Virus record (IMG/VR): IMGVR_UViG_3300037432_000003
Location: 1-45,788 of that record
Direction: 5' to 3' (one strand)
Source of the DNA: a virus
DNA: 45,788 bases
A model generated the notes under the pieces. The model was not told where the DNA came from and made no database searches. It saw only the letters and a program-made list of their open reading frames with translations. The position numbers and the translations under genes were made by a program. Below, in pieces: positions 392 through 45,788 of the stretch. Positions within the stretch are counted from its first letter, which is position 1. Each line of letters begins with the position of its first letter.

Positions 392-2593
392 ATGCCAACT
401 GAATTAGGCCCGCACGATCTAACCTCAAATACCAGTCATTCGCCGTTCGTCGCTTCGGCGTCGAGTCACGCGGGCGCCAATGACGCATGGGGCGCCTTTG
501 CATTCGACGTCGGCGGCACGCCTCACTACTGGTTCGCAAATGCCACAACCGGCTGGCTGCAAATGGATCTCGGCAGCGCTTCGATTCTCGGTTCCTATGC
601 GCTGTCGAACGTGTCGGCCGTCGGCGCCCCGTCCGCTTCGCAGATGGCGAAGACCTGGATAATGCAGGGATCGAACGACGGAACGACCTGGACGACGGTA
701 GACACGCGGGCAAGCGAAACCGGCTGGTCGCCGGCGCAAAGCCGGACGTATACATGCGCGACCGTCACGACAGCTTACCGGTATTTCCGGATCACGATTT
801 CAGCGAACAACGGCGACACGTCGAACGTCGGCATAAGCGAGCTTTCGCTGTATGCCGTCTCGCTGACCGCGCAGACGATAACCTTCGCCGTCATCCCCGC
901 ACACCTGACGACCGACGGCCCGATCACGCTGGCCGCAACGTCGTCGTCCGGTCTGACGGTCGCTTACGCGATCACCGGCCCGGCCACGCTGGCTGGTTCA
1001 GTCGTGACTTTGACCGGCGCCGTAGGTTCGGTCGTCGTGACTGCCAGTCAGGCCGGTAACTCAACTTATGCAGCGGCCACGAACGTCGTCCGGAGCTTCG
1101 CCGTTACCGCGGCAGCGATCACGGAGCGGGGCGGCATCACGTACGACCAGGTGCGCGGGACCGATCGCAGCGGGACGGGCATCAAACTGGCGACAGTGAC
1201 CGGAACGACAACGACCGGGCACCTGCCGGCGTTCGATGCGTCAGGCGCGCTGGTCGATTCGGGCAGTGCAGGCGTTGCTTTGTTCTCCGGATCTTTGGCG
1301 GGTGACGTGACCGGAACGCAGGCGGCGACGGTAGTAGGCAAAGTAAACGGCGTTTCGTTCGCGTCGCTCGGAACCGGAATCCTCAAGAACACCACCACGA
1401 CCGGCGTGCCCGGCATCGCGGTCGCCGCCGATTTTCCGACGTTGAACCAATCGACGACAGGCACGGCGGCGAACGCCACGACGGCCGTATCGTTCTCGGG
1501 ATCGCTCGCAGGCGATGTGACTGGGACGCAGGGCGCTACGGTAGTCGGCAAAGTGAACGGGGTTTCGTTCGCTTCGCTCGGGACCGGCCTGCTGAAGAAC
1601 ACCACAACGACCGGCGTACCTTCGATCGCCGTCAGTGCGGACGTGATCGCGGCGCTCGGCTATACGCCGACGTCGCCGGCCACGCTCGCCGCATGGCCCG
1701 GTTCGGCGAACATCGTAACGATCGGAACGATCACGACGGGCACGGTTCCCGTGGCGCGCATCACCGGGCTTGCGCCGGTCGCGACGTCCGGATCGGCGAC
1801 CGATCTGACCGCGGGCACGCTGCCGGCGGGGCGCCTGCCGAACCCGTCTGCGACGACGCTCGGCGGCATCCAGTCTTATCTGCCCGTCGCAAATCAGTTC
1901 ATCGACCGGATCTCGACGGCGGGCGTGCCGCTCTCGCGGGCGATCGCGGCCGCCGACGTCCAGGGACCGGGCACATTGAATACCATTCTGGGGGTTGGAT
2001 CATTCAATATCACCGCCACCGGCACCAGCAACACTGTCTTTGGCAGCGCGAGCCTGGCCGCCGACACGACGGGCAGTTATAACGTGGCCGTCGGGTGGAA
2101 TGCGCTGCTGAACAACACTTCCGGCGATCGCAATATGGCGGTCGGCGTGGCTGCGCTGTACTCGAACACGAGCGGCCAATCAAATCTTGGAATCGGAACG
2201 TCCGCACTTCAGTCGAATACGACGGGTAGTCACAACGTGGCAATCGGCCAGGACGCGGGATATTCACCGGCCTCGAGTATTACTGGTTCGTCGAACACGT
2301 TCATTGGCTACGCTGCCTGCATCTTTGGCGGCACAGATCCGCTCAACAATGCCACGGCAATCGGTGCGAACGCCATCGTACCGGTTTCGAACTGCGTGGC
2401 GCTCGGCGACAGCAGCGTCACGCGCATTTACCTCGGCGGCAAGGTGTCGATTTATATCGGCGCGGGGAGCCCGAATTCCGCAGTCGTCGGCAAGCCCGGC
2501 GACATCTACCTCAACACTAGCGGCGGGGCGGGAACGACGATTTACATCAAAGAATCCGGTACAAACACGAATACCGGCTGGATCGGAAAATAA
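392..2593 (+). CDS. Tail fibre: discoidin-like, Ig-like and YadA-head-like repeats
   Basis: 733 residues with a strong ribosome site (GGAGGTGAC just before the ATG). Residues 1-155 resemble an F5/8-type C (discoidin) carbohydrate-binding domain (GWLQMDLGSA, YFRITIS). Residues 161-238 are one QTITF-type Ig-like repeat. A linker related to that of the upstream fibre follows, then two degenerate repeats ([35 protein letters not shown]). Residues of about 540-690 are short NTVFG/NVAVGWNAL/NMAVGVAAL/NVAIGQDAG repeats like the beta-roll heads of trimeric adhesins. The end (GKPGDIYLNTSG, YIKESGTNTNTGWIG) is typical of phage fibre tips. It lies one base after the preceding fibre gene and is its N-terminal paralogue. 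There is no signal peptide, so it is probably a virion protein. Confidence 0.85.
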   Translation: MPTELGPHDLTSNTSHSPFVASASSHAGANDAWGAFAFDVGGTPHYWFANATTGWLQMDLGSASILGSYALSNVSAVGAPSASQMAKTWIMQGSNDGTTWTTVDTRASETGWSPAQSRTYTCATVTTAYRYFRITISANNGDTSNVGISELSLYAVSLTAQTITFAVIPAHLTTDGPITLAATSSSGLTVAYAITGPATLAGSVVTLTGAVGSVVVTASQAGNSTYAAATNVVRSFAVTAAAITERGGITYDQVRGTDRSGTGIKLATVTGTTTTGHLPAFDASGALVDSGSAGVALFSGSLAGDVTGTQAATVVGKVNGVSFASLGTGILKNTTTTGVPGIAVAADFPTLNQSTTGTAANATTAVSFSGSLAGDVTGTQGATVVGKVNGVSFASLGTGLLKNTTTTGVPSIAVSADVIAALGYTPTSPATLAAWPGSANIVTIGTITTGTVPVARITGLAPVATSGSATDLTAGTLPAGRLPNPSATTLGGIQSYLPVANQFIDRISTAGVPLSRAIAAADVQGPGTLNTILGVGSFNITATGTSNTVFGSASLAADTTGSYNVAVGWNALLNNTSGDRNMAVGVAALYSNTSGQSNLGIGTSALQSNTTGSHNVAIGQDAGYSPASSITGSSNTFIGYAACIFGGTDPLNNATAIGANAIVPVSNCVALGDSSVTRIYLGGKVSIYIGAGSPNSAVVGKPGDIYLNTSGGAGTTIYIKESGTNTNTGWIGK

Positions 2594-7222: not shown

Positions 7223-8011
7223 ATGACGCCGCCACGCATCGTCCGTTTCGCGCTGCTGGCGGCGTTCTGTTTTGCTTCGCCGGCGTCTGGCATCTCGAAG
7301 GCCGACGCCGCCGCGCTGGCTGCCGCCCGGGCTGAAGCTGCCGCTGTAAAAATCCAGTTACAACAATCGCAGGCCGCGCTCGATCAGGCCCTGCGGAATT
7401 CCGCCGCCAAAGACCGAACTGCCGCTGAGTCCGGCGCCGCGCTCGCCCGCCAGTCGTCGAATCAGGCGCAGTCTGCCAACAGTCAGCGGGCCGATGCCCG
7501 GGTGGCGGCCCAGACGAATGCGGACGCGGCGCAGGTTTCCGCGGCCGAAACGAAAAGATCGGTAGACGACGGCCGATCCGAAGCCGACGACCGGCATGCT
7601 GCCGATAAGCTCGCCGCGGAGCGGGCGTATCATCTGCAACTGGCGCAGTTCGGCACGATGATCGTGATGGCTGTCATCGGGTTGGGCGGCGGATTTCTGA
7701 AGTTACGGGGAATCACGGTGAATGCTGCGAACGCCCTGAAGGTCACGACGGAGCATCGCAAAACCGAACTGGCCGCGATCGAGGAAGTCAAAAGCCATGC
7801 TCTGGAGGCCTCGGCCGCGGCGAAAGCATCGGCGACCGAGATTGCGGAAGCGTCACGGGACGTGAAAGGCTATACGCAGTCGGTCGCCAAGGTCGAAACT
7901 CTGGCGCGTCTCGCGCTGCAGACTGCCGTCCGCGGGCGGGCCGTTCAGGCAGCGCCGACGCCGCCGGCGCCTGTCGCCGCCGAGATCCGCGCCGGCGCGC
8001 CGGGCGCATAG
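7223..8011 (+). CDS. Exported coiled-coil protein with one internal membrane helix
   Basis: 262 residues. An N-terminal Sec signal is apparent (RIVRFALLAAFCFASPASG). A long Ala/Gln/Asp coiled coil covers about 25-135, then a hydrophobic segment at about 142-163 (FGTMIVMAVIGLGGGFLKL), then a second helical domain to about 235 and a Pro/Ala tail. If the signal is cleaved, the coiled coil is periplasmic and the C-terminal half cytoplasmic. Such a protein could act in lysis, in superinfection exclusion or as an envelope sensor, but the sequence does not choose between these. It closes a group of helical genes in the early operon. Confidence 0.65.
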   Translation: MTPPRIVRFALLAAFCFASPASGISKADAAALAAARAEAAAVKIQLQQSQAALDQALRNSAAKDRTAAESGAALARQSSNQAQSANSQRADARVAAQTNADAAQVSAAETKRSVDDGRSEADDRHAADKLAAERAYHLQLAQFGTMIVMAVIGLGGGFLKLRGITVNAANALKVTTEHRKTELAAIEEVKSHALEASAAAKASATEIAEASRDVKGYTQSVAKVETLARLALQTAVRGRAVQAAPTPPAPVAAEIRAGAPGA

Positions 8012-8029
8012 TGAATGAAGGTGAAATAA

Positions 8030-8188
8030 ATGCCGATTCTGATTTTGATTCTGCTGCTCGTCCTGTTCGGCGGCGGCGGCGGTTATTACGGTTATCACGC
8101 GTGGGGCCCGTCCGGCGCGATCGGCGTCGTTGTCGTCGTGCTCGTGCTGTTGGCGCTTTTCGGCAGGGGCCGGTTCACGGACGTTTGA
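8030..8188 (+). CDS. DUF3309-like 52-aa membrane protein
   Basis: 52 residues with two hydrophobic helices (PILILILLLVLFGGGGG and AIGVVVVVLVLLALFG) joined by YYGYHAWGPSG. The pattern of a glycine run, YYGY, then a W-G-P motif and a second Val/Leu helix is that of the small DUF3309 family. Function unknown in that family. Its TGA overlaps the ATG of the LuxR-type gene by one base, so the two are probably coupled. A holin role is possible but unproven. Confidence 0.65.
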   Translation: MPILILILLLVLFGGGGGYYGYHAWGPSGAIGVVVVVLVLLALFGRGRFTDV

Positions 8189-8415
8189 TGCCGCGGCGCC
8201 GTACACCCGATAATCCGCTGTCGCCGTGCGAGTGCAACATTCTGCGCGAACTGTGGTCGGGCGCGGCCGACAAAGAAATCGCCTGGCGGCTGCATCTTTC
8301 GCCCGGCACGGTCAAATGCCATCTGCGACGGATCGAACAGGCGCTCGGCGTGAAATCGCGTGTGCCGCTCGCCCTCTGGGCCGAACGGCGCCGCGTGGCA
8401 AATACGTACGAGTAA
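8188..8415 (+). CDS. LuxR/GerE-type HTH DNA-binding protein
   Basis: 75 residues, essentially a bare GerE (LuxR C-terminal) helix-turn-helix. It reads LSPCECNILRELWSGAADKEIAWRL, with LSPGTVKCHLRRIEQALGVKSR as the recognition part. This fits the family pattern of four helices with conserved E, G, I, V/K and H/I positions. There is no sensor or receiver domain. It overlaps the small membrane protein upstream, so a membrane-to-DNA link is conceivable. It is the last gene of the plus-strand early operon and a candidate lysis/lysogeny or host-takeover regulator. Confidence 0.8.
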   Translation: MPRRRTPDNPLSPCECNILRELWSGAADKEIAWRLHLSPGTVKCHLRRIEQALGVKSRVPLALWAERRRVANTYE

Positions 8416-8917: not shown

Positions 8918-9913
8918 TTAAAGCACGCCCGCCAGCGGATTTCGCCCGGCGAACAGCCGTTCCCGGTCGATATACATGCGCATTACTGCCGGACTTTCAT
9001 GTCCCGACAGGCCCATAATTTCCTGATCGCTGCGACCGAGTTGCGCCGACGCGGTTATAGCGCCGGCGCGCAGTGAGTGCGCGCCGTACAGATCGGGATC
9101 GAGGCCGACGCCTGCAACCAGACGTTTCACAATATCGTTTACGCTTTCGCCCGAAATGCCGTCGCTCGTGAGCTGGTCGCCGGTCTGAATGCGGCAGAAA
9201 AGCGGACCCTGCCAGCTGCCGCGCGCCTTAATCCAGTCAGCCAGCACGCGGACCGGATCGGTAGCCGTTCGCTTGCCGGGCCACACGGCGATGCGCCGGC
9301 CTTTGCTTTTCTGATCGGTCTTCGACTTCCGCACGAAAATGACCAGCCTGCCGCCGTCGTCAAAAGTGACATCCTTCAGTTGCAGCCGGGCAAGGTTACT
9401 GCGCCGCAGGGTCGTGGCGAATCCGAGGATCAGAATCGCCCTGTCGCGCAGTCCGGCGTTCGTTTTGCGGCTGCACGACTGCGCGATGCGCAACAGATCG
9501 TCTTTGCGCAGCGCTGTCTTTCCCTGTGGCTGTTCGCCCCGGTCCTGCTGCACCTCCGCGACCACGGCGCGCGCCTCGGCAACCGACGGCGCGGGAAGTT
9601 TCGCCTGTTTGTGCGCGTCGAGGATGGCCGCCAGATGCCGGTTCACGGTGGTCACCCGCCGCTTTTTTTCGAGAAGCGACCAGATCGCATACTTTTTCAG
9701 CGTGTCGGCCGACGCCGGCAGAGAGACGCGGTCGAATTCCCTGCACCAGCTTCCGAAGACGCGCAAATCCGAAGCGTAGCCGCGCACGGTCAGGCCGGCT
9801 TGCTTCGGCGATCCGCTGAGTGCTCGCTCAAGCTCCTGTAGTTTCACTAAATCGGCACCCCCGAAGTCGAACAGCCGCAGTTGTCCCTGCTCTCCGAAAA
9901 CAGTATTGCTCAT
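8918..9913 (-). CDS. int: Tyrosine-type site-specific integrase
   Basis: 331 residues. The N-terminal part (about 27-125) is a SAM-like core-binding domain (LTVRGYASDLRVFGSWCREF, TVNRHLAAILDAHK). The C-terminal catalytic domain carries the full set: R170 (TLRRSNLARL), K198 (RKSKTDQ), H279 and R282 (HSLRAG), H305 (SGHES) and nucleophile Y314 (MRMYIDRE). All catalytic residues are present, so it should be active in recombining phage and host att sites. It marks the phage as temperate. The order and spacing fit the phage/Cre-like branch. The attachment site cannot be fixed from this window, and the 415-bp region upstream is the obvious place to look. Confidence 0.93.
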   Translation of the reverse strand: MSNTVFGEQGQLRLFDFGGADLVKLQELERALSGSPKQAGLTVRGYASDLRVFGSWCREFDRVSLPASADTLKKYAIWSLLEKKRRVTTVNRHLAAILDAHKQAKLPAPSVAEARAVVAEVQQDRGEQPQGKTALRKDDLLRIAQSCSRKTNAGLRDRAILILGFATTLRRSNLARLQLKDVTFDDGGRLVIFVRKSKTDQKSKGRRIAVWPGKRTATDPVRVLADWIKARGSWQGPLFCRIQTGDQLTSDGISGESVNDIVKRLVAGVGLDPDLYGAHSLRAGAITASAQLGRSDQEIMGLSGHESPAVMRMYIDRERLFAGRNPLAGVL

Positions 9914-18443: not shown

Positions 18444-19796
18444 GTGCGACGCGAAACCATCAAATACGCGGACTACCGGCCGTACGGCGCCGCGCGCGAG
18501 CTGTTCAGCCAGCACGCGGACGAAGTACTTCTGTCCGGGCCTGCCGGAACGGGGAAAAGCAGGTCTTGTGGGGAAAAGTGCCACGCGGTAGCGGAAAAAT
18601 ACCCTGGCTGCCGCATCCTGATGGCGCGCAAGACGCGCAAATCCTTCGATAACACGACCCTCGTTACGTTCGAAAAGCTGGTGCTGCCCCGCGGCGCAGC
18701 GAAGATCACAGACGACGGCGTCAAGTACCCGAACGGCTCGGAAATCGTCTTCGGGGGCTTCGACCGCAACAGCAAAATCATGGGGTCGGAATACGATCTC
18801 GCGTACGTCGCCGAAGCGACCGAACTGACAGAGGACGACTGGGAAGCCGTCACGACGCGTTTGCGCTGGGGCGTCGTGCCGTATCAGCAGTTGATCGCCG
18901 ATTGCAATCCCGCGCATCCGAAGCACTGGCTGAAACTGCGCGCCAATTCCGGCCGCACGCTGATGCTCGAATCACGGCACGAAGACAACCCGGCTCTCTG
19001 GGACGCGACAGCGGTAAACCCGGACGGCGCCCGCGGCAATTGGACAAAGAAGGGCGCGGCGTACATTGCGAAGCTCGACCGGCTGACCGGCCCGCGTTAT
19101 TTGCGGCTGCGCAAAGGCATCTGGGCGTCGGCCGAAGGCATGATTTACGCCGACTGGGACCCCGCGGTGCACATGGTGGACTGGTTTCCGATCCCGCCCG
19201 ACTGGCCGCGCATCTGGGTCGTCGATTTCGGATTCAGTCACGCGTTCGCGTGGCAGGCGTGGGCGCGCGACCCGGACGGCCGGCTGTATCTCTATCACCA
19301 GATTTGCCGGACCAAGACGCTGGTGCAGGATCACGCGCAGGCGATGCGCAACGCGTGTCTGGGCGAACCGTACCCGCAGGCCATCGTCTGCGACCACGAC
19401 GCGGAAGACCGCGCGACGCTTGAACGGCACCTCGGCATGTACACGGTCCCGGCGTTCAAAAGCGTGCGGCCCGGCATTCAGGCGGTGCAGGCCCGGCTGC
19501 GCCCTGCCGGCGACGGGAAGCCGCGGTTATTCGTGCTGCGCGATTCGCTCGTTTCGCGCGACGAGGCGCTGGTCGAAGCGCACCGGCCGACGTGTCTTGA
19601 GGAAGAGATCGATTCGTACGTGTGGGCGAAAAGCGTGACCGAAGGCCGGCCGAAAGACGAGCCGGTCAAAAAGGATGATGACTGCGCGGATTGCGCCAGG
19701 TATGCCGTGACGTGGTTCGACGGCACGGCGCGCGATCCGGCCGAGGAAAAGCTGACGATCGGCTTCGACGCGCGCTATCAGATCAGCCCGATCTGA
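18444..19796 (+). CDS. terL: Terminase large subunit
   Basis: 450 residues; the GTG at 18444 is the start. An ATG four bases upstream is out of frame. ATPase domain: Walker A GPAGTGKS at 32-39, Walker B YDLAYVAEA at 117-125 with E124, and coupling motif IADCNPAHP at 151-159. RNase-H-like nuclease domain: D261 (VVDFGF), D317/D319 (VCDHDAED), and the acidic DDDCADCA at 411-418. Both catalytic domains are intact. It powers DNA translocation into the prohead and makes the packaging cuts. The sequence is of the PBSX/Terminase_3 kind by overall form. Confidence 0.93.
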   Translation: MRRETIKYADYRPYGAARELFSQHADEVLLSGPAGTGKSRSCGEKCHAVAEKYPGCRILMARKTRKSFDNTTLVTFEKLVLPRGAAKITDDGVKYPNGSEIVFGGFDRNSKIMGSEYDLAYVAEATELTEDDWEAVTTRLRWGVVPYQQLIADCNPAHPKHWLKLRANSGRTLMLESRHEDNPALWDATAVNPDGARGNWTKKGAAYIAKLDRLTGPRYLRLRKGIWASAEGMIYADWDPAVHMVDWFPIPPDWPRIWVVDFGFSHAFAWQAWARDPDGRLYLYHQICRTKTLVQDHAQAMRNACLGEPYPQAIVCDHDAEDRATLERHLGMYTVPAFKSVRPGIQAVQARLRPAGDGKPRLFVLRDSLVSRDEALVEAHRPTCLEEEIDSYVWAKSVTEGRPKDEPVKKDDDCADCARYAVTWFDGTARDPAEEKLTIGFDARYQISPI

Positions 19797-20525: not shown

Positions 20526-20927
20526 ATGGCTACCGCCATCAATGCCTCAAAACTGATCGCCATTCCCGCGCAAACCATCGACGATTACTGCGACCTGCTG
20601 GCGCTGCGCGCCGCGTTTGCGCCAACCGAAGCGCGTTTCCGCAAGGCGCACGAACAGATGAAAATGCTGCTCGATAACGCCGACCCGGAAGCCGAATACA
20701 CGGTTAAAGGCGAACGGCACAAGCTGCGTATTTCGGCGTGCGGCTGGGAAATGACGCCTGACGTGCCGACGGTCCGGAAGAAGCTCGGCGCGGCCGTGTT
20801 TCTGTTGGTCGCCAGCGTGACGAAAGCCGCGCTCGCCCCGTTCATGCTCAAGCCCGACATCGACGAGTGCTGCCTGCAGACGCAGTCGGGGCCGCGCAAA
20901 TTCACGCCGATTCCGCTCTCCGAGTAG
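20526..20927 (+). CDS. 133-aa protein, unknown
   Basis: 133 residues. N-terminal helices (DDYCDLLALRAAFAPTEARFRKAHEQMKMLLDN) precede a strand pair (EAEYTVKGERHKLRISACGWEMTPD), a helix-like stretch (VRKKLGAAVFLLVASVTKAALAPFM) and a closing strand KPDIDECCLQTQSGPRKFTPIPL. It resembles phage exclusion or Gp157-like accessory proteins only in general layout. The gene is its own plus-strand unit behind an operator-like repeat, and its whole length is antisense to the end of the secreted-protein frame on the other strand. Confidence 0.6.
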   Translation: MATAINASKLIAIPAQTIDDYCDLLALRAAFAPTEARFRKAHEQMKMLLDNADPEAEYTVKGERHKLRISACGWEMTPDVPTVRKKLGAAVFLLVASVTKAALAPFMLKPDIDECCLQTQSGPRKFTPIPLSE

Positions 20928-21458
20928 CGGCGGCGGCGGATCGACGACGACAAGTCCCTGCCCTTTCCCGTTCGGCATTTCGTAATAGTGCACCCGGCTC
21001 GTATCGAACGTGCTTACGTGCGCGAGGGCGTCCGTCAGGTACGCCTCCATGGCGGGCGACACGGCGAAAATGCCGGGCGCGAACAAAGACCACATGGCCC
21101 GCTGCCGGTCAACCAGCAGTTGACGCGTGGCTGGCTGTAAGGTCGCGAGATAGCCGATCATGACATATTTGTCCCACGAATCCGGCAGCACGATGAACTG
21201 CCCGACGTACTGGATCTCGTCGAGGCTCAGATCCTGAGCGTGCCACGTGTCGCCGACTTTGTTCCGGCGATAGAGATCGTACGACAGCGCGGTGGCCACC
21301 CGGCCGTCGATCGTGATGTTGACCGGTCCGGCGTTGAACCCGCGGACGTCGGCAAGGCCGGGCGAAAGCAACTGGATTGTGACGGTGGTTGCGGCAGGTG
21401 CGGCAGTTGCGGCAGCGAGCAGGAGAGCTAAGACTTTGCCGGAGTTAACCATAGCCAT
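20547..21458 (-). CDS. Secreted PEP-CTERM-family-like protein without anchor (moron)
   Basis: 303 residues from the ATG at 21458, or 301 from 21452. A Sec signal occupies residues 3-23 (GKVLALLLAAATAAPA). The mature part to about 173 follows the layout of a secreted family seen in PEP-CTERM-bearing bacteria: GFNAGPVNITIDG, YDLYRRNKVGDTW, QRAMWSLFAPGIF, then GKGQGLVVVDPPPP. Such proteins normally end with PEP, a helix and an Arg cluster. Here the frame instead runs antisense through the gene at 20526 and ends in an Arg-rich segment. A shorter natural product or a truncated gene is possible. It is isolated on the minus strand with its own regulatory repeats: a host-derived lysogenic-conversion candidate. 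Confidence 0.6.
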   Translation of the reverse strand: MAMVNSGKVLALLLAAATAAPAATTVTIQLLSPGLADVRGFNAGPVNITIDGRVATALSYDLYRRNKVGDTWHAQDLSLDEIQYVGQFIVLPDSWDKYVMIGYLATLQPATRQLLVDRQRAMWSLFAPGIFAVSPAMEAYLTDALAHVSTFDTSRVHYYEMPNGKGQGLVVVDPPPPLLGERNRREFARPRLRLQAALVDVGLEHERGERGFRHAGDQQKHGRAELLPDRRHVRRHFPAARRNTQLVPFAFNRVFGFRVGVIEQHFHLFVRLAETRFGWRKRGAQRQQVAVIVDGLRGNGDQF

Positions 21459-21459
21459 G

Positions 21460-21479
21460 CGGCAGCATCTCTGCTGCCG
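21460..21479 (-). promoter_or_regulatory. Perfect hairpin just before the secreted-protein start
   Basis: CGGCAGCA-TCTC-TGCTGCCG is a perfect 8-bp inverted repeat with a 4-base loop. It ends one base before the ATG of the minus-strand secreted gene. In the mRNA it would occupy the ribosome-binding region and could hold translation off. No Shine-Dalgarno is otherwise seen there. Confidence 0.45.
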
Positions 21480-21546
21480 TTCGCCGTTTGGAAAGCGTGA
21501 GTGAACCTGAGAGGGACCACACAAGCGACGGTCGAAAGAATGCAAT

Positions 21547-21582
21547 CTCCGGAATTGTGCAGATGCCTTTGCACAATTGGAG
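21547..21582. promoter_or_regulatory. Operator-like inverted repeat AATTGTGCA/TGCACAATT
   Basis: AATTGTGCA (21553-21561) and TGCACAATT (21570-21578) are perfect 9-bp inverted copies with an 8-bp spacer. They are extended by CTCC (21547-21550) against GGAG (21579-21582). It lies about 90 bp upstream of the minus-strand secreted gene in an otherwise gene-free 306-bp stretch (21459-21764). That stretch also holds the palindrome ACACCGGTGT at 21655-21664. Regulator binding is the likely role. Confidence 0.5.
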
Positions 21583-21764
21583 ACGAGTTTACCGCGCGGG
21601 GGTCGAAAAAACCATAAAAACACGCCGAAAACTGGTAAAATACAGAGGCGGGCCACACCGGTGTTAGAGCACCGACGCGACCCTGACCAACGCCGCCTGT
21701 CGCCCAATTCAGGAACTTAAAAGGCGCGGACGTCGGAAACGTATCAACGGCAAGCTGGTGACGA

Positions 21765-22169
21765 TCAAACCTTGAACCCTTGATTCTTAAACGCTTCACG
21801 GATAGCAGGGCGGGAGGAATCGATGGCTGGTCGGAGGAATGGCTGAGACGCTGCACCTGGGTGAGTGGGCGAGTACGGCCCAGCTCCGGCTCCAGGGGAT
21901 CCAGCCCCACGTACGCCGGTGCCATACTCGACAAAAACAGCGTAGGGCTGCGCTGCCGTTACGCTGCCCTGCACTACCTGGCCGACCAGCTCGACCGACG
22001 AACCGATCGAATCGCGCAGCGCGCCCGACTCGACGGGGCAAAGGATCTGGGCCTCCGCCACGACGGCCGCGCAGCCTTCGGTTACGGCGGCGACGACGCG
22101 CGGGATGATGGCGGCTTGCGCCTGCACGATATCGCGCGGGGTGAATTTGGACGACGCTTTGAAGTTCAT
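21765..22169 (-). CDS. HK97 gp10-like head-tail connector protein, inverted
   Basis: 134 residues with the family signature: helical N-terminus (VVAAVTEGCAAVVAEAQILCPVESGALRDSI), strands (GQVVQGSVTAAQPYAVFVEYGTGV), a Gly/Pro loop and the closing motif ASQPFLRPAIDSSRPAIREAF. In HK97-like phages this protein lies between the head-closure and tail-terminator genes. In this genome those are near 34.6 and 35.6 kb on the plus strand, and no second gp10-like gene is seen there. This copy sits on the minus strand between terminase and portal, the third gene of a minus-strand unit. Confidence 0.75.
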   Translation of the reverse strand: MNFKASSKFTPRDIVQAQAAIIPRVVAAVTEGCAAVVAEAQILCPVESGALRDSIGSSVELVGQVVQGSVTAAQPYAVFVEYGTGVRGAGSPGAGAGPYSPTHPGAASQPFLRPAIDSSRPAIREAFKNQGFKV

Positions 22170-22174
22170 GCCGT

Positions 22175-22432
22175 TTACTCCGCAGGCGGCGGAAACAGGC
22201 TCATGATTCCCTGCAGATACGGCGAGGCGACGGCCGGATTCAGCAGCACGGCGGCGCCGTCCGGCGCGACGTCCTGCTGATGGTATGCCAGCAGCGCGAG
22301 CATACCCAAGCCCATGAACTGACCGAGATTGAAAAAATGCTTATGCACTGCGGGCGGGACCGGCACGATAGCGGCGGTAGCCGGAATCAGCACGAGAACT
22401 TTCGCGGGCGTCACGGGCGCTTCGGGTGTCAT
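22175..22432 (-). CDS. 85-aa protein, unknown
   Basis: 85 residues: Pro/Val-rich start (EAPVTPAKVLVLIPATAAIVPVPPAVHKHFFNLGQFMGLGMLALLAYHQ), with a hydrophobic stretch at about 40-50, then a Pro/Ala-rich end (LLNPAVASPYLQGIMSLFPPP). Five bases separate it from the connector-like gene. No family recognised; a minor structural protein is one option. Confidence 0.5.
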   Translation of the reverse strand: MTPEAPVTPAKVLVLIPATAAIVPVPPAVHKHFFNLGQFMGLGMLALLAYHQQDVAPDGAAVLLNPAVASPYLQGIMSLFPPPAE

Positions 22433-22447
22433 GCCTTGAGTCTAGGC

Positions 22448-22648
22448 TTAATCCTCCGTCAGCGTTCCGAATTTCTGCAGCAGCGCGTCCAGCAGGTCGA
22501 TCAGCTCCGCGATCGCGGAAAACGGCGTCAGGATCGCCGCCGTTTCCGGATCATCGGCATACAGTTCCATGAGCTTTTCGAGCGCGCGACGGGTCGCCCG
22601 CCAGTGCGCGAGCACTGGACGAACGGAAGGCGCGGGCGCGGAAGCCAT
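22448..22648 (-). CDS. 66-aa helical protein, unknown
   Basis: 66 residues, first gene of the minus-strand unit 22648-21765. Helical: VLAHWRATRRALEKLMELYADDPETAAI, LTPFSAIAELIDLLDALLQKFG. No family recognised. Its start lies 58 bp from the divergent portal gene, so a promoter for this unit must be in or near that gap. Confidence 0.5.
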   Translation of the reverse strand: MASAPAPSVRPVLAHWRATRRALEKLMELYADDPETAAILTPFSAIAELIDLLDALLQKFGTLTED

Positions 22649-22706: not shown

Positions 22707-24707
22707 ATGAACCAGTCGATCAATTCAATGATGGCGAGGCTGCTCGGCCGCGGGCCATCGGCGCCGGCGCAGCTCGCCGCCGCGTTCGCCGAAGCCGGAC
22801 GCCGGGAAGCGGAAGCCCGCAAGGCGGCGGCGATGGCGGAAGCCATCCGCACGCTGACGCAGGAGCTGGCGATCGCCGGGGCGCGCGAGCAGTCGTTTCG
22901 CTCAGATGCCATAGAACGCGCTCACGAACTGGTAGAAGCGCGTCAGATGGCCGGCGCCGGGCCCTGGCTGGTGGCGGAGGCCCGTACCTCGACTAACCAG
23001 CGGGGCCCGCTGCGCGTGGCCGAAGCACTGACCTCGGGCGGCGGGTTCGGCGAATTAGAGTTGATGCTCGACAACGCCGAATGGCGGCGCGAGATCAACT
23101 GGTCGTGGCTCGAATTCAGCAGGTGGGGCATTCAGCAGATCATCCTGATTTCGCGGCTGTATTACATCAAAAACCCGATCATCCGCCGGCTGATCGATGT
23201 AGACGCGTGCTACGTCTTCGGCCGCGGCGTCGAGATCTCATCGCCGGATCCGGACGCGAACGCCGTGCTGCAGGAATTCCAGGTGCGCAACAATTCCGTG
23301 CTCGGCCAGGTGGCGCTGTCCGAACATCAGAAGCGCACCAACTACGATGGCAACCTGTTCTTTGCATTCTTTCCTGACACCGATTCGACTGGACTCGTTT
23401 CAATCCGGCTGATCGATGCGACCGAAATGCAGGACATCGTTTGCGACCCCGAAGACGTCGAAAAACCCTGGTACTACCGGCGCGCGTGGACGGCGCGCGA
23501 GTTCAACGAAGCGACCGGGCAGACGGCGACCCGCACGCGCGAGCTTTGGTATCCGGCGCTTGGCTACGATCCGGAATTCAAACCGCCGAAGATCAACGGC
23601 ATCGATGTCGATTGGGCGCATCCCGTGCTGCACCGCCGCTACGGTTCAGTCGGTCAGTGGACGTTCGGCTGCCCGGTCGTTTACCCCGCCTTAGATTGGG
23701 CCAAAGCCGCGCGGAAGTTTTTGGAAGCGTGCGCCACCGTCAAACAGGCGCTATCGCAGATTGCGCTGACGGTCACCACCACGGGGGGCCAGCAGGGCCT
23801 GGCGCAGGTGAATCAGCTTTTAGGAACTACCGTCGGACCGAACGCGCCGGGCCTCGGCGGCGGTGAAACGAATCCGCCGGCGATTTCCGGATCCACGTTC
23901 GCGGCCGGGCCCGGCACGGCCGTCGCCGCGTTCGTGCAGAGGGGCAAGTCGGACGATCCGGCCGAGGTCAAAGAGTTCAAGGCGATGTGCGCGATCGTCA
24001 TCGGCGTGCCGCCCACGTTCTTAGGCGATCTCGAAACCGCGAACCTTGCCACGGCGACGACTTTGGACAGGCCCACGGAATTAGGCTTTTTACACAAGCA
24101 GGAAGCATGGCGCGAAATCCTCGCGACCATCGCCACTTACGTGCTGTCGGTCTCGAAGGGCGCCCCGTCGGGCCAGCTGCGCGAAGCGCTGGAACGGCGG
24201 AAGGTCGCCGCGAAAGACGTCGTGATCCGCGAAGCCGCGCGGATTCGAAGGCCGGACGGTCGTCAAGTCTACTTGACGGAGGCGCAGCGGGCGAAAGGAA
24301 AGACGCCGCCGAAGCCGAACGTCATCGAAGTGAACATCAATTTTCCGGCCATCCTCGAAGGCGATATTGCGGCGCTGGTCTCGGCGACCGTCGAGGCCGG
24401 AACGCTGGGAAATACGGCGGGGACGGTGTGCGGCATCGACGAAAAGGAGCTGGTCAGGCGCCTCTGCGATCTGCTCGGGTTCGAAGACGCGGACGCGATC
24501 ACGGAGCTGATGTATCCGTCGGACGGCCCGGACGCTTACGACCCGCTACGTATCAAGCCGGATCCACCCGTGCAACCCGCGTTGCCCGGCGCTGCACCGG
24601 TTGCGCCGGTTCCGCCGGTACCCGGCGCGCGTAAAGCCGTTCCGGCGAAGGTCGCCGAAGCCGCTGCCCGGGTGCGGGCGGCGCTCGCGCTGTTTGAGGC
24701 CGCGTGA
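22707..24707 (+). CDS. Portal protein
   Basis: 666 residues. The central region has portal features: WLEFSRWGIQQIILISRLYYIKNPIIRRLIDVDACYVFGRGVEI, then IRLIDATEMQDIVCDP and VLHRRYGSVGQWTFGCPVVYPALDWAKAARKFLEACATV. The clip and stem-like part has EFKAMCAIVIGVPPTFLGDLETANLATATTLDRPTELGFLHKQEAWREIL. The C-terminus is Pro/Ala-rich with a terminal helix. It forms the dodecameric ring through which DNA enters the prohead and to which connectors attach. The extra N-terminal helix (about 1-85) is longer than usual. It follows the terminase block after a minus-strand insertion. Confidence 0.85.
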   Translation: MNQSINSMMARLLGRGPSAPAQLAAAFAEAGRREAEARKAAAMAEAIRTLTQELAIAGAREQSFRSDAIERAHELVEARQMAGAGPWLVAEARTSTNQRGPLRVAEALTSGGGFGELELMLDNAEWRREINWSWLEFSRWGIQQIILISRLYYIKNPIIRRLIDVDACYVFGRGVEISSPDPDANAVLQEFQVRNNSVLGQVALSEHQKRTNYDGNLFFAFFPDTDSTGLVSIRLIDATEMQDIVCDPEDVEKPWYYRRAWTAREFNEATGQTATRTRELWYPALGYDPEFKPPKINGIDVDWAHPVLHRRYGSVGQWTFGCPVVYPALDWAKAARKFLEACATVKQALSQIALTVTTTGGQQGLAQVNQLLGTTVGPNAPGLGGGETNPPAISGSTFAAGPGTAVAAFVQRGKSDDPAEVKEFKAMCAIVIGVPPTFLGDLETANLATATTLDRPTELGFLHKQEAWREILATIATYVLSVSKGAPSGQLREALERRKVAAKDVVIREAARIRRPDGRQVYLTEAQRAKGKTPPKPNVIEVNINFPAILEGDIAALVSATVEAGTLGNTAGTVCGIDEKELVRRLCDLLGFEDADAITELMYPSDGPDAYDPLRIKPDPPVQPALPGAAPVAPVPPVPGARKAVPAKVAEAAARVRAALALFEAA

Positions 24708-30558: not shown

Positions 30559-32907
30559 ATGCTGCGTCGCTTACTCATCCTCGCGGCCTTCGCTGCCGCG
30601 CTCGTAAGCGGCCAGCCGGTCTGCACCGTCGTGCAAGGTCCCATATACCAACTTGGGACCCCTTCGCTGATCGCACTCAACACGCCGCCGTATTCCGGCA
30701 GCTACATCGACGTCACTCTCAGCTACACGCCACCGGGCGGGCCGACGCAGTCGGCCGTCCGGATCTCACCCCTAGCCGGCGCGTTTACGACGTGCCTCGT
30801 GCCCGGAACGTACGCTGTGGCCTACACCGTCCGGATCGCGTCGCCGGCAGGCGGGACCAGCACATATAAAAGGACGTGGACCGTGCCCGCTGGCGGGCCG
30901 TACGTCGTGCAGGCGATCGAGACGGCGACGCCGGCCGTTGCGCCGGCATCGGTAATTTCGCTGTCGCAGATCGCAAGCGGCGGCGCCACGCCCGGTCAAT
31001 CGGTCGTCTGGAACGGCTTTACGTACGCGCCGGCTAACACGCCGCCCGCGTCCAGTCTGGCGTGGGGAAATCTGACCGGGCTGATTACCAATCAGCCTGA
31101 TCTGGTAGCAGCGCTGGCTGCGACTCTCGGCGCGGGTCCGACCGGGCCTGCAGGGCCGACGGGCCCGCAAGGTATCGCAGGCATCGCAGGCAGTGCAGGT
31201 GCGACGGGCAGCGCGGGTGCGGCAGGCGCCACCGGTCCTATCGGCCTTACCGGGCCGGCAGGCCCGAACGGCGCGGACGGCGCAGCAGGACCAACCGGTT
31301 CAGCGGGCAGTGCAGGCGCGGCAGGGCCTACCGGTCCGGCCGGCGCAGCCAGTACTGTGCCCGGGCCCGCGGGTTCGGCAGGCGCTGCAGGTCCGACAGG
31401 TCCGCAAGGCATCGCAGGCAGTGCAGGCGCCACAGGCAGCGCGGGTGCTGCCGGGGCAACCGGTCCGGCAGGCGCAGATAGCACGGTAGCGGGACCAGCC
31501 GGACCTACCGGTCCGCAGGGCGTCGCAGGTACGGCGGGCGCAACGGGTTCGACGGGCACGGCCGGGACGCCCGGAACGGCCGGGGCTACCGGCTCACAAG
31601 GCCCCGCGGGTCCGGCGCCGGCAGGTACGGGCATCGTGTACACGACGGGCGGCGTTCCGGCGATTGCGATCGCAGCGAATTTTCCGACACTCAATCAGTC
31701 AACGACGGGTCTGGCCGCCACGGCGACTGCGCTCGCCGCCAACGGTACGAACTGCCCGGCCGGAAGCTATCCGTTAGGCGTCGATGCATCGGGCAACGCC
31801 GAAAGCTGTACCGTGGCCAGCGGTGGCAGTATCAGTGCTTTGACCGGCGACGTGACGGCTTCCGGGTCGGGTTCAGTGGCGGCGACCGTCGTGAAGCTGA
31901 ACGGCGTTTCACTGGCCGGACTCGCGACCGGTCTGCTGAAGAACACGACGACGACGGGCGTTCCTTCGATCGCGGCATCGGGCACGGACTACGGCCCGCC
32001 GACTTCCGGTCTCGCAACCGGAATTCTCAAAAGCACCACGACAACCGGCGCGCATACGATCGCGGCATCGGGAACGGATTATGGTCCGGCTACCTCGGGA
32101 CTTGGAACCGGAATTCTCAAAAGCACGACCGGAACCGGCGCGCATACGATCGCGGTAGCGGGCGATTTTCCGACGCTGAACCAGGCAACTACCAGCAGCG
32201 CGGGATCGTTCACCGGTTCGCTTGCGGGCGATGTGACCGGAACGCAGGGCGCTACAGTGGTGGCGAAGGTAAACGGCGTCGCTTTGTCCGGTCTCTCGAC
32301 CGGTATTCTTCGCAACACGACCGGGACCGGGGCGCCGGTTATCGCCGTCGTCGGCGATTTTCCGACACTCAATCAGTCAACGACGGGTCTGGCCGCCACG
32401 GCGACTGCGCTCGCCGCTACCCCGTCGCTTTGCAGCGGCGGGCAGGTTCCGACCGGCGTGCTGGCGAACGGCAATGCAACCGGCTGCGCCACGCCCTCGG
32501 GCACGACTGCCGCGCAGTACAAAACGAAATCATGCGTCGTTACAGTGGGCGACCCGGGTGCAGCTTCGTCCGTACTCGCAGACGATAACGACAGTCCGCG
32601 CGCCTGTGACAACGATTCGGGCGTGGACTGGATTATCACGGGCGTCGCCTGCTATGCCGATGCAGGCTCACCCACCGTTACGCCCATTCTGACCGGAGGC
32701 ACGGGAACAAGTCTAATCACGGGCGCACTGACGTGCGGGACGGGCGTCTGGGCAGCGGGCACGCTGGCTACTACCCCGACGGTTCATACGTTCTCGGGGT
32801 CGGGATCGGCGACCTGTTCGAGCACGCCCTGCTCGATCGACGTGAGCATTACAACGGCAGGCGGGGCGGCGAAATATCTGATCGTCAAGATCGTGGGGAC
32901 CTACTGA
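30559..32907 (+). CDS. Exported collagen-like fibre protein
   Basis: 782 residues. Sec signal at 1-18 ([16 protein letters not shown]). Then a beta domain, and a collagen-like Gly-X-Y segment at about 193-353 (31135-31617). Then repeats shared with the fibre at 392: [49 protein letters not shown] Cys-containing end ([33 protein letters not shown]) closes it. Twelve cysteines are present, mostly outside the repeats, which suits an oxidising extracytoplasmic site. A signal peptide on a virion fibre would be odd. It lies between capsid and connector genes and is followed by two more signal-peptide genes. Confidence 0.8.
31135..31617 (+). repeat. Collagen-like Gly-X-Y coding repeat
   Basis: About 54 consecutive Gly-X-Y triplets ([13 protein letters not shown]-type and [10 protein letters not shown]-type units) with one or two irregularities. 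Phage and bacterial collagen-like segments form trimeric rods between globular domains. The repeated GC-rich DNA is prone to slippage, so length may differ between isolates. Confidence 0.85.
31679..32417 (+). repeat. 61-bp direct repeat within the exported fibre gene
   Basis: Bases 31679-31739 and 32357-32417 are identical over 61 bp. They encode [20 protein letters not shown] twice in the same frame. The spacing is 678 bp. A shorter protein lacking the intervening repeats could arise by recombination between them, or the gene could have grown by it. Confidence 0.85.
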
Positions 32908-44172: not shown

Positions 44173-45788
44173 ATGCCGCTCGCCGATCTCGCACCACACG
44201 ATTTAACCTCAAACACCAGTCACCCGCCGTTTGTCGTTTCGGCGTCCAGTCAGAACAGCCAGGCGTTCCGCGCGTTCAATATCGCAGGCGCCAACCCAAG
44301 CGGATCGTGGGGCGATGCAACGACCCCGACCGGATGGCTGCAGATCGATCTGGGCGCCGCGCATTCGGTCACAAGCTACGGCATCCTCGGCGCTACGGCA
44401 GGGTTTAATTCGACCGAATGGCAATTACTCGGCAGTCCGGACGGCGCGACCTGGACGGTCTTAGATACGCAGACCGGCCAGACAAGCTGGACCAACGGCG
44501 TTATCGCTGCCTACACGCCCGCACTGACGACGGCGTTTCGTTACTTCAGATTCAACATTCTGCACAATCAGAGCGTATCTGGCGCATACGTCGCCGAACT
44601 CTATTTGTCTGCGACCGTTCTCGCGCAGACGATAACGTTCCCGGCGATCGGCGCGCATCTCTCCACCGATGCGCCGTTCGTCATCGCCGCAACGGCTTCG
44701 TCCGGCCTGCCAGTGACCTACACCGTCACAGGCCCGGCGACCGTCTCTGCAGGCGGTACGGTCACGCTGCTCGGCGCCGGATCGGTCACGATCACTGCCA
44801 GTCAGGCGGGTGACTCAACTTATGCAGCGGCTACGCCCGTTGCCCGAACGTTTCTCGTGAGTGCCCCGGCGCCGCCGGCGGGACCGCAGACAATCACGTT
44901 TCCCGTGATCCCCGATCATCTCGCGACCGATCCGGCATTCGCGCTCGGCGCAACCGCCAGCAGCGGATTACCCGTTACGTACGTCGTAACATCCGGTCCG
45001 GCGACCGTGCTGGGCGGCATTGTGACGCTTACCGGCGGAAGCGGCAGCGTCACGGTTACCGCCTCGCAGGCCGGGAACTCCACATGGGCGGCGGCGACTC
45101 CGGTCTCGCGCACGTTTAACGTCAATTCACCGGCCGGGCAGACGATCACGTTTCCCGCGATCGCCGACCAGCTCAACACCGTCGGGTCGTTTGCGCTCGG
45201 CGCAACCGCTTCGTCCGGGCTTGCGGTCACGTACGTCGTAACGAGTGGCCCGGCTTCGATATTCGGGGCGACGTGCATTCTGACCGGAGGCCTCGGCCCC
45301 GTTACGATCACGGCGTTTCAGCCCGGCAATGCAACGTGGGCCCCGGCGGCGCCGGTCTCGCGTACGTTCAACGTGCTGGCGCCCGCGCTCGTGCCGCAGA
45401 CGATCACGTTCCCGCCGCTGCCGGACCGGCTGTCGGGCGCGCTGTTCACGCTGACGGCGACCGCAAGCAGCGGCTTGCCGGTAACGTATACGATCTCGGG
45501 ACCGGCTACTCTGTCGGGCTCGATCGTCACTGTTACCGGAACCGGCGCTGTAACCGTGACGGCGTTTCAGGCGGGCGATTCGACCTGGTCGGCGGCCGTG
45601 CCGGTCGCGCGCACGTTCAACGTCATCGCTTTGATTCAGAAGATCCAGCGGGGCAATATCGCGTATGACCAGATCCGCGCACTGCACCGCCAGGGTGCGG
45701 GCGGCCAGGTGCAGATGTATACCGGCCCGGCGCCGCAAAGCGGAAACGTGCCGGTCTGGGACCCGAACGGCAGCTTAGTCGATTCCGG
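44173..45788 (+). CDS. Tail fibre/receptor-binding protein, N-terminal part (continues at 1-390)
   Basis: Open to the contig end and, through the overlap, to 390, giving 621 residues. Residues 1-148 are a discoidin-like domain (TGWLQIDLGAAHSVTSYGILG, RYFRFNI, AYVAELYL). Four QTITF-type Ig-like repeats follow at 151-230, 238-318, 322-402 and 409-485 (44623-45627). The linker IQRGNIAYDQIRA then leads to the C-terminal domain in 1-390. Its N-terminal half is a paralogue of the next fibre (392-2593), so the two are a tandem pair. The repeats probably form the arm that carries the host-recognition domain. Confidence 0.82.
   Translation, partial: MPLADLAPHDLTSNTSHPPFVVSASSQNSQAFRAFNIAGANPSGSWGDATTPTGWLQIDLGAAHSVTSYGILGATAGFNSTEWQLLGSPDGATWTVLDTQTGQTSWTNGVIAAYTPALTTAFRYFRFNILHNQSVSGAYVAELYLSATVLAQTITFPAIGAHLSTDAPFVIAATASSGLPVTYTVTGPATVSAGGTVTLLGAGSVTITASQAGDSTYAAATPVARTFLVSAPAPPAGPQTITFPVIPDHLATDPAFALGATASSGLPVTYVVTSGPATVLGGIVTLTGGSGSVTVTASQAGNSTWAAATPVSRTFNVNSPAGQTITFPAIADQLNTVGSFALGATASSGLAVTYVVTSGPASIFGATCILTGGLGPVTITAFQPGNATWAPAAPVSRTFNVLAPALVPQTITFPPLPDRLSGALFTLTATASSGLPVTYTISGPATLSGSIVTVTGTGAVTVTAFQAGDSTWSAAVPVARTFNVIALIQKIQRGNIAYDQIRALHRQGAGGQVQMYTGPAPQSGNVPVWDPNGSLVDS
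44623..45627 (+). repeat. Four tandem Ig-like (QTITF) coding repeats
   Basis: Each unit is about 80 codons and starts with QTITFP, then SSGLPVTY, GPAT, a VTVTAS-type strand and TPVSRTFNV. Single or partial units are found in 392-2593, 37095-37841 and 41247-44168, seven in all. The repeats are similar at DNA level, so expansion by recombination is likely. Confidence 0.85.
45649..45788. repeat. Terminal overlap, right copy (circular contig)
   Basis: Same 140 bp as 1-140 with T at 45775 for G at 127. The reading frame from 44173 enters it in phase. It shows that the contig closes on itself. Confidence 0.85.

Follow-up and report, generated by a model that had tools for sequence, protein, structure and literature searches.

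A phage-borne relative of Acidobacteriota PEP-CTERM surface proteins that lacks the sorting anchor

A minus-strand ORF in the structural region of an integrase-bearing, soil-type phage encodes a relative of Acidobacteriota PEP-CTERM surface proteins and ends before the sorting anchor. The explanation that we favor, with moderate confidence, is that the ORF is a phage cargo (moron) gene derived from such a surface protein, that its 3' end and anchor were lost at a junction with a neighboring gene, and that it is most likely a decaying truncated copy. The window (the whole stretch of DNA analyzed) comprises a 45,788-base virus record with terminase, portal, head, tail, and endolysin genes as well as a tyrosine integrase gene. 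Bases 1-126 are repeated directly at 45649-45774, 14 bases before the window end, which suggests a nearly complete or circularly permuted genome; judged from this repeat near both ends, the window is probably a near-complete genome. It contains no tRNA gene that could mark a tRNA-type attachment site. The features relevant to the ORF are as follows.

8918-9913, minus strand: tyrosine integrase, pointing to a temperate lifestyle (PF00589, E 3e-15; phrog_1)
18444-19796, plus strand: terminase large subunit (PF04466; phrog_2)
20526-20927, plus strand: conserved phage gene convergent with the ORF (44-52% identity to homologs in L001/L154, L153, and L155), referred to below as the 20526 gene
20547-20927, minus strand: fortuitous antisense continuation of the ORF to its TGA, 126 codons, Arg-rich by composition, pI 11.9, without coding signal (-0.10 bits/codon versus +0.40 for the 20526 gene on the opposite strand)
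20928-21458, minus strand: PEP-CTERM-family-like secreted ORF proper, comprising putative signal peptide and mature region to a PPPP run, without anchor (homologous to PEP-CTERM proteins of Acidobacteriota; codon position bias like that of the phage, +0.30 bits/codon)
21390-21458, minus strand: putative Sec signal peptide, MAMVNSGKVLALLLAAATAAPA-AT, with cleavage before AT (read from the sequence; aligns with the signal peptides of relatives)
21459-21764, no strand: intergenic region upstream of the ORF, 306 bp, GC 56%, a possible promoter/operator region
21765-22169, minus strand: HK97-gp10-like neck/tail-completion gene, upstream of the ORF and on the same strand (PF04883, E 9.9e-6; phrog_5, E 2.1e-17; C-terminus kept on the minus strand in L001)
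22707-24707, plus strand: portal protein, bounding the minus-strand slot on its far side (phrog_10963, E 2.2e-61)

The ORF starts with an ATG at 21458 and stays open for 303 codons to a TGA at 20547-20549. Its N-terminus is hydrophobic and, as judged by eye, ends in an AxA-like site. Residues about 11-176 of the encoded protein (P0002) are homologous to PEP-CTERM proteins, the mature homologous part amounting to ~150 residues. In the alignment, the motifs GPV-x-x-x-IDG, SYD, G-x-TW-x-A, RQRAMWSLFAPG, and GQGLVV, followed by PPPP, occur in the same order as in the relatives, with RQRAMWSLFAPG aligned to IQHAAWSLFxP, GQGLVV to VQGLVV/VQGFIV, and PPPP to P-EP. The two motifs singled out in the first-pass annotation of this DNA are genuine family motifs: QRAMWSLFAPG fits Q(H/R)AxWSLFxP, and GQGLVVVDPPPP fits VQGLVV/VQGFIV and then P-EP. 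Searches of Pfam and NCBIfam with the ORF returned no match, PHROGs gave none that was convincing, no relative was found among solved structures, and structure prediction without an alignment reached a pLDDT of 40, too low to be of use.

Homology was established by sweeps of bacterial genomes. Among 396 genomes of the phylum of G001 (Acidobacteriota), four weak matches to the ORF were obtained, three of which (in G087, G220, and G268) represent one PEP-CTERM protein family. A second sweep, through the Acidobacteriota class of G268, gave matches at E<=0.01 in 16 of 399 genomes, the best at E 2.3e-9 and ~30% identity. Of the 14 ORFs newly read from this class sweep, 13 end in a PEP-CTERM anchor and the remaining one is unrelated. 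In the order of G483, 11 of 250 genomes matched at E<=1e-3. None of 199 Planctomycetota genomes matched the ORF, and the reversed ORF protein matched none of 100 genomes of the same order, including four that were matched by the forward query. With a profile of 24 host proteins, the mature region scored 17.4 bits, whereas the highest score among 5000 shuffles was 11.3; the profile is mildly circular, having been collected with host protein L100 as query, which was picked because the ORF matched it. That an antisense or otherwise spurious ORF merely resembles a secreted family is thus very improbable. The single-genome E-values of the first sweep, only ~5e-4, would have allowed such a chance similarity, but the E-value of 2.3e-9, the consistent matches to one family, the clean controls, the failure of reversed and shuffled queries to match the family equally well, and the strand-specific coding signal all speak against it. 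The first-pass annotation had named a homology search for the secreted family beforehand as a test of its reading, with a lack of such matches as the refuting outcome; secreted-family matches were found, and the claim of a putative Sec-type signal, judged by eye, joined to a PEP-CTERM-family mature part stands.

Significant similarity extends over the mature domain with the conserved motifs in order, and on this sequence evidence we regard as solid the assignment of the ORF to the mature-domain family of these Acidobacteriota PEP-CTERM proteins, and with it the host relationship. The closest proteins are L132 (genome G483), L146 (G834), L133 and L145 (G632), L135 (G587), L147, and L148. Their signal peptides align with the putative one of the ORF, they share with it the core GPY-x-x-x-IDG ... 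CYD ... GxTWxA ... QHAxWSLFxP ... VQG(F/L)(I/V)V in the same order, and the ORF keeps the family signature residues G, IDG, YD, G-x-TW-x-A, Q-x-A-x-W, and QG. It differs from them in having GPV for GPY, SYD for CYD, and a mature part without Cys, and its tree branch measures 2.55 against a median of 0.66 (about fourfold).

The main difference lies at the C-terminus. The Acidobacteriota proteins end in P-EP, a hydrophobic helix, and basic residues, whereas the phage ORF stops short of these, and no PEP motif, helix, or basic anchor occurs later in its frame. Within the last 45 residues, the highest 17-residue hydropathy is 0.30 in P0002 versus 1.05-2.80 in the relatives. The relatives match PF07589 (five of six in alignment A4) or NCBIfam PEP-CTERM models; the ORF matches none of the curated PEP-CTERM models (PF07589/TIGR02595), even at a lax E-value. 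The missing anchor noted in the first-pass annotation is therefore borne out by hydropathy and by the curated models. The exported domain of the ORF descends from substrates of the exosortase/PEP-CTERM sorting system (PF07589, TIGR02595; Haft et al. 2006, PMC1569441), but the ORF lacks the PEP motif, hydrophobic helix, and basic cluster that make up the sorting signal and, as it stands, is not a substrate. Secreted PEP-CTERM proteins required for matrix retention are exemplified by the flocculation-associated PepA (NF033554), a model that five members of alignment A3 match weakly (best 5.9e-6) and the phage ORF does not match.

Both the homology and the coding signal stop at the PPPP run (~20930), beside the stop codon of the convergent 20526 gene. 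At the three codon positions, the ORF proper has GC fractions of 0.64/0.44/0.78, as in other genes of the phage; those of the antisense part, 0.81/0.44/0.63, mirror the 20526 gene. A sliding codon score falls from about +0.3 to below zero at codon ~175 and climbs again over the last ~40 codons of the tail; we attribute this late rise to noise, since a conserved gene occupies that stretch on the plus strand. The frame of the tail contains stops in the related phages L001 and L153 and is open in L155, and the idea of a conserved tail protein was rejected. The first-pass annotation had placed the gene at 20547-21458, running antisense into the 20526 gene. The frame is indeed open across that extent, and the 20526 gene is real and conserved in three related phages; the part past 20927 has no coding signature, and the real unit is about 20928-21458. 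At its own end, the 20526 product is two residues shorter than its L001 relative, and this gene, too, may have been shortened at the junction and may owe its stop to it.

The junction is known from one metagenomic contig, and the contig could in principle join two phage variants near 20928, the real gene having a normal PEP-CTERM end. We consider such an assembly artifact unlikely. A misjoin would be plausible at the junction's (CCG)4 run, and every relative read has an intact anchor, but the 20526 gene ends normally, the flanking synteny is that of L001, L153, and L155, and the slot is about equally compact in those relatives. Nor do the other two frames downstream of the junction contain a PEP-CTERM end, so a simple indel would not restore the anchor.

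In the three related phages, other minus-strand genes fill the slot between the 20526 homolog and the portal gene. In L001, the 20526 homolog is followed by small minus-strand genes of 56, 65, and 80 aa, the part that the ORF takes up in the window, and then by the end of the neck protein, whose C-terminus matches that in the window. A 104-aa minus-strand gene in L155 ends 5 nt past the stop of the 20526 homolog, with the portal gene next, and L153 has a longer gap in which a relative of the L155 104-aa protein was recognized by eye. The slot genes of L001 and L155 end 4-5 nt from the stop of the 20526 homolog. The 20526-gene-to-portal interval is a variable minus-strand cargo slot in an integrase-bearing phage. 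In the window, the HK97-gp10-like neck gene and two small genes (21765-22648, minus strand) lie between terminase and portal genes and opposite to the other structural genes; the end of the neck gene has the same orientation in L001.

The ORF thus resembles the lysogenic-conversion (moron) genes of temperate phages in being an extra gene of bacterial origin at a variable position in the structural region, flanked by conserved terminase and portal genes. Machinery for forming lysogens is represented by the tyrosine integrase gene. Unlike typical morons, the ORF lacks its own stop codon, and no second carrier phage was found. Single-protein and profile scans of IMG/VR viral contigs detected no relative, although these scans need exact short patterns and may miss distant copies; a portal scan of viral contigs gave zero matches, as did a search of genome contigs with the ORF, and tblastn against phages and plasmids returned chance matches only. 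The relatives of the cargo gene point to an Acidobacteriota host, a call based on the cargo alone. The terminase gives no host call: its relatives are scattered over Actinomycetota, Chloroflexota, Acidobacteriota, and Planctomycetota, and a terminase-based search found a partial match in one of 250 genomes of the order.

We propose that the cargo gene descended from an Acidobacteriota PEP-CTERM surface protein and came to lie in the variable minus-strand slot bounded by the 20526 and portal genes. The ancestral full-length form would have been exported, processed by host exosortase, and able to change the lysogen surface. Illegitimate joining to the 3' end of the 20526 gene would then have removed the PEP motif, membrane helix, and basic tail of the ORF, and the ancestral surface-tethering function was most likely lost. 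The present product, if translated, would undergo Sec export without exosortase recognition and be periplasmic or released with a fortuitous basic tail.

Work on other bacteria reports that exopolysaccharide is kept on the cell surface by anchored PEP-CTERM proteins, and that regulatory mutants that do not express them release it in soluble form (PMC9012009); loss of exosortase abolishes biofilm formation and polysaccharide adhesion to the filament surface (PMC12188702). By this logic, a version without the anchor, were it made, would be exported yet left untethered. These reports lend some plausibility to a less probable but tenable alternative, in which the phage keeps, under selection, a soluble version of a host matrix protein as a conversion factor. 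Such a factor would compete with anchored PEP-CTERM proteins for exopolysaccharide or partner proteins and either loosen the host coat, favoring progeny release and easier spread, or mask a receptor. The more specific proposal that an Acidobacteriota temperate phage maintains the anchor-free matrix protein as a soluble decoy that remodels or loosens the exopolysaccharide coat of the lysogen is, in our estimate, doubtful.

Several features are consistent with selection. The secreted ORF is intact and its signature residues are kept; the 176-codon frame, the phage-like third-position bias, and the 306-bp upstream gap are also compatible with a gene that is expressed and under selection. The upstream gap has a lower GC content and contains a 9-bp perfect inverted repeat, AATTGTGCA-N8-TGCACAATT, at 21553-21578, present in one copy in the window, which could be an operator; a scan of 21459-21764 found no sigma-70-like promoter. 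That the frame is still intact in so diverged a domain implies constraint on the protein while most of the divergence accumulated, whether this took place in the phage or in a host not sampled. The long branch may itself reflect a new function instead of decay, and both capture from an unsampled host and long residence in the phage fit it.

Against a selected factor stand the lack of an own stop, the basic 126-residue tail (pI 11.9), and the failure to find a second phage with the gene. A former conversion gene in decay is, in our judgment, more probable than a diffusible factor under selection because the branch is about four times the median, no IMG/VR relative was found, and the ORF has no stop of its own. 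Of the two options in the first-pass annotation, a captured host gene turned diffusible conversion factor is upheld by the homology, curated-model, and coding-signal tests as regards capture, anchor loss, and the reading into the neighboring gene, but its diffusible role is less likely on the points just given; the other option, a truncated remnant, accounts for the data no less well.

The literature search turned up no phage-borne relatives of exosortase substrates. Among papers containing both "PEP-CTERM" and "bacteriophage", none described a phage-carried PEP-CTERM gene in its title or abstract, with subscription journals mostly outside the coverage, and the most promising one deals only with host expression. 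Acidobacteriota have many PEP-CTERM paralogs. A phage carrying such a gene, with or without anchor, would offer a handle on the surface roles of these paralogs and on phage dealings with matrix-coated soil bacteria; a single truncated copy is mainly evidence of PEP-CTERM genes passing through phages.

Three other genes in the window deserve mention. A 733-aa protein with tail-spike-like matches (392-2593, plus strand) contains an F5/8 type C (galactose-binding-like) domain and is a candidate receptor-binding protein. The 782-aa tail protein at 30559-32907 (plus strand) matches collagen-like tail fiber families. Adjoining the integrase gene, 8011-8415 (plus strand) encodes a small protein with a LuxR-type (GerE) DNA-binding domain.
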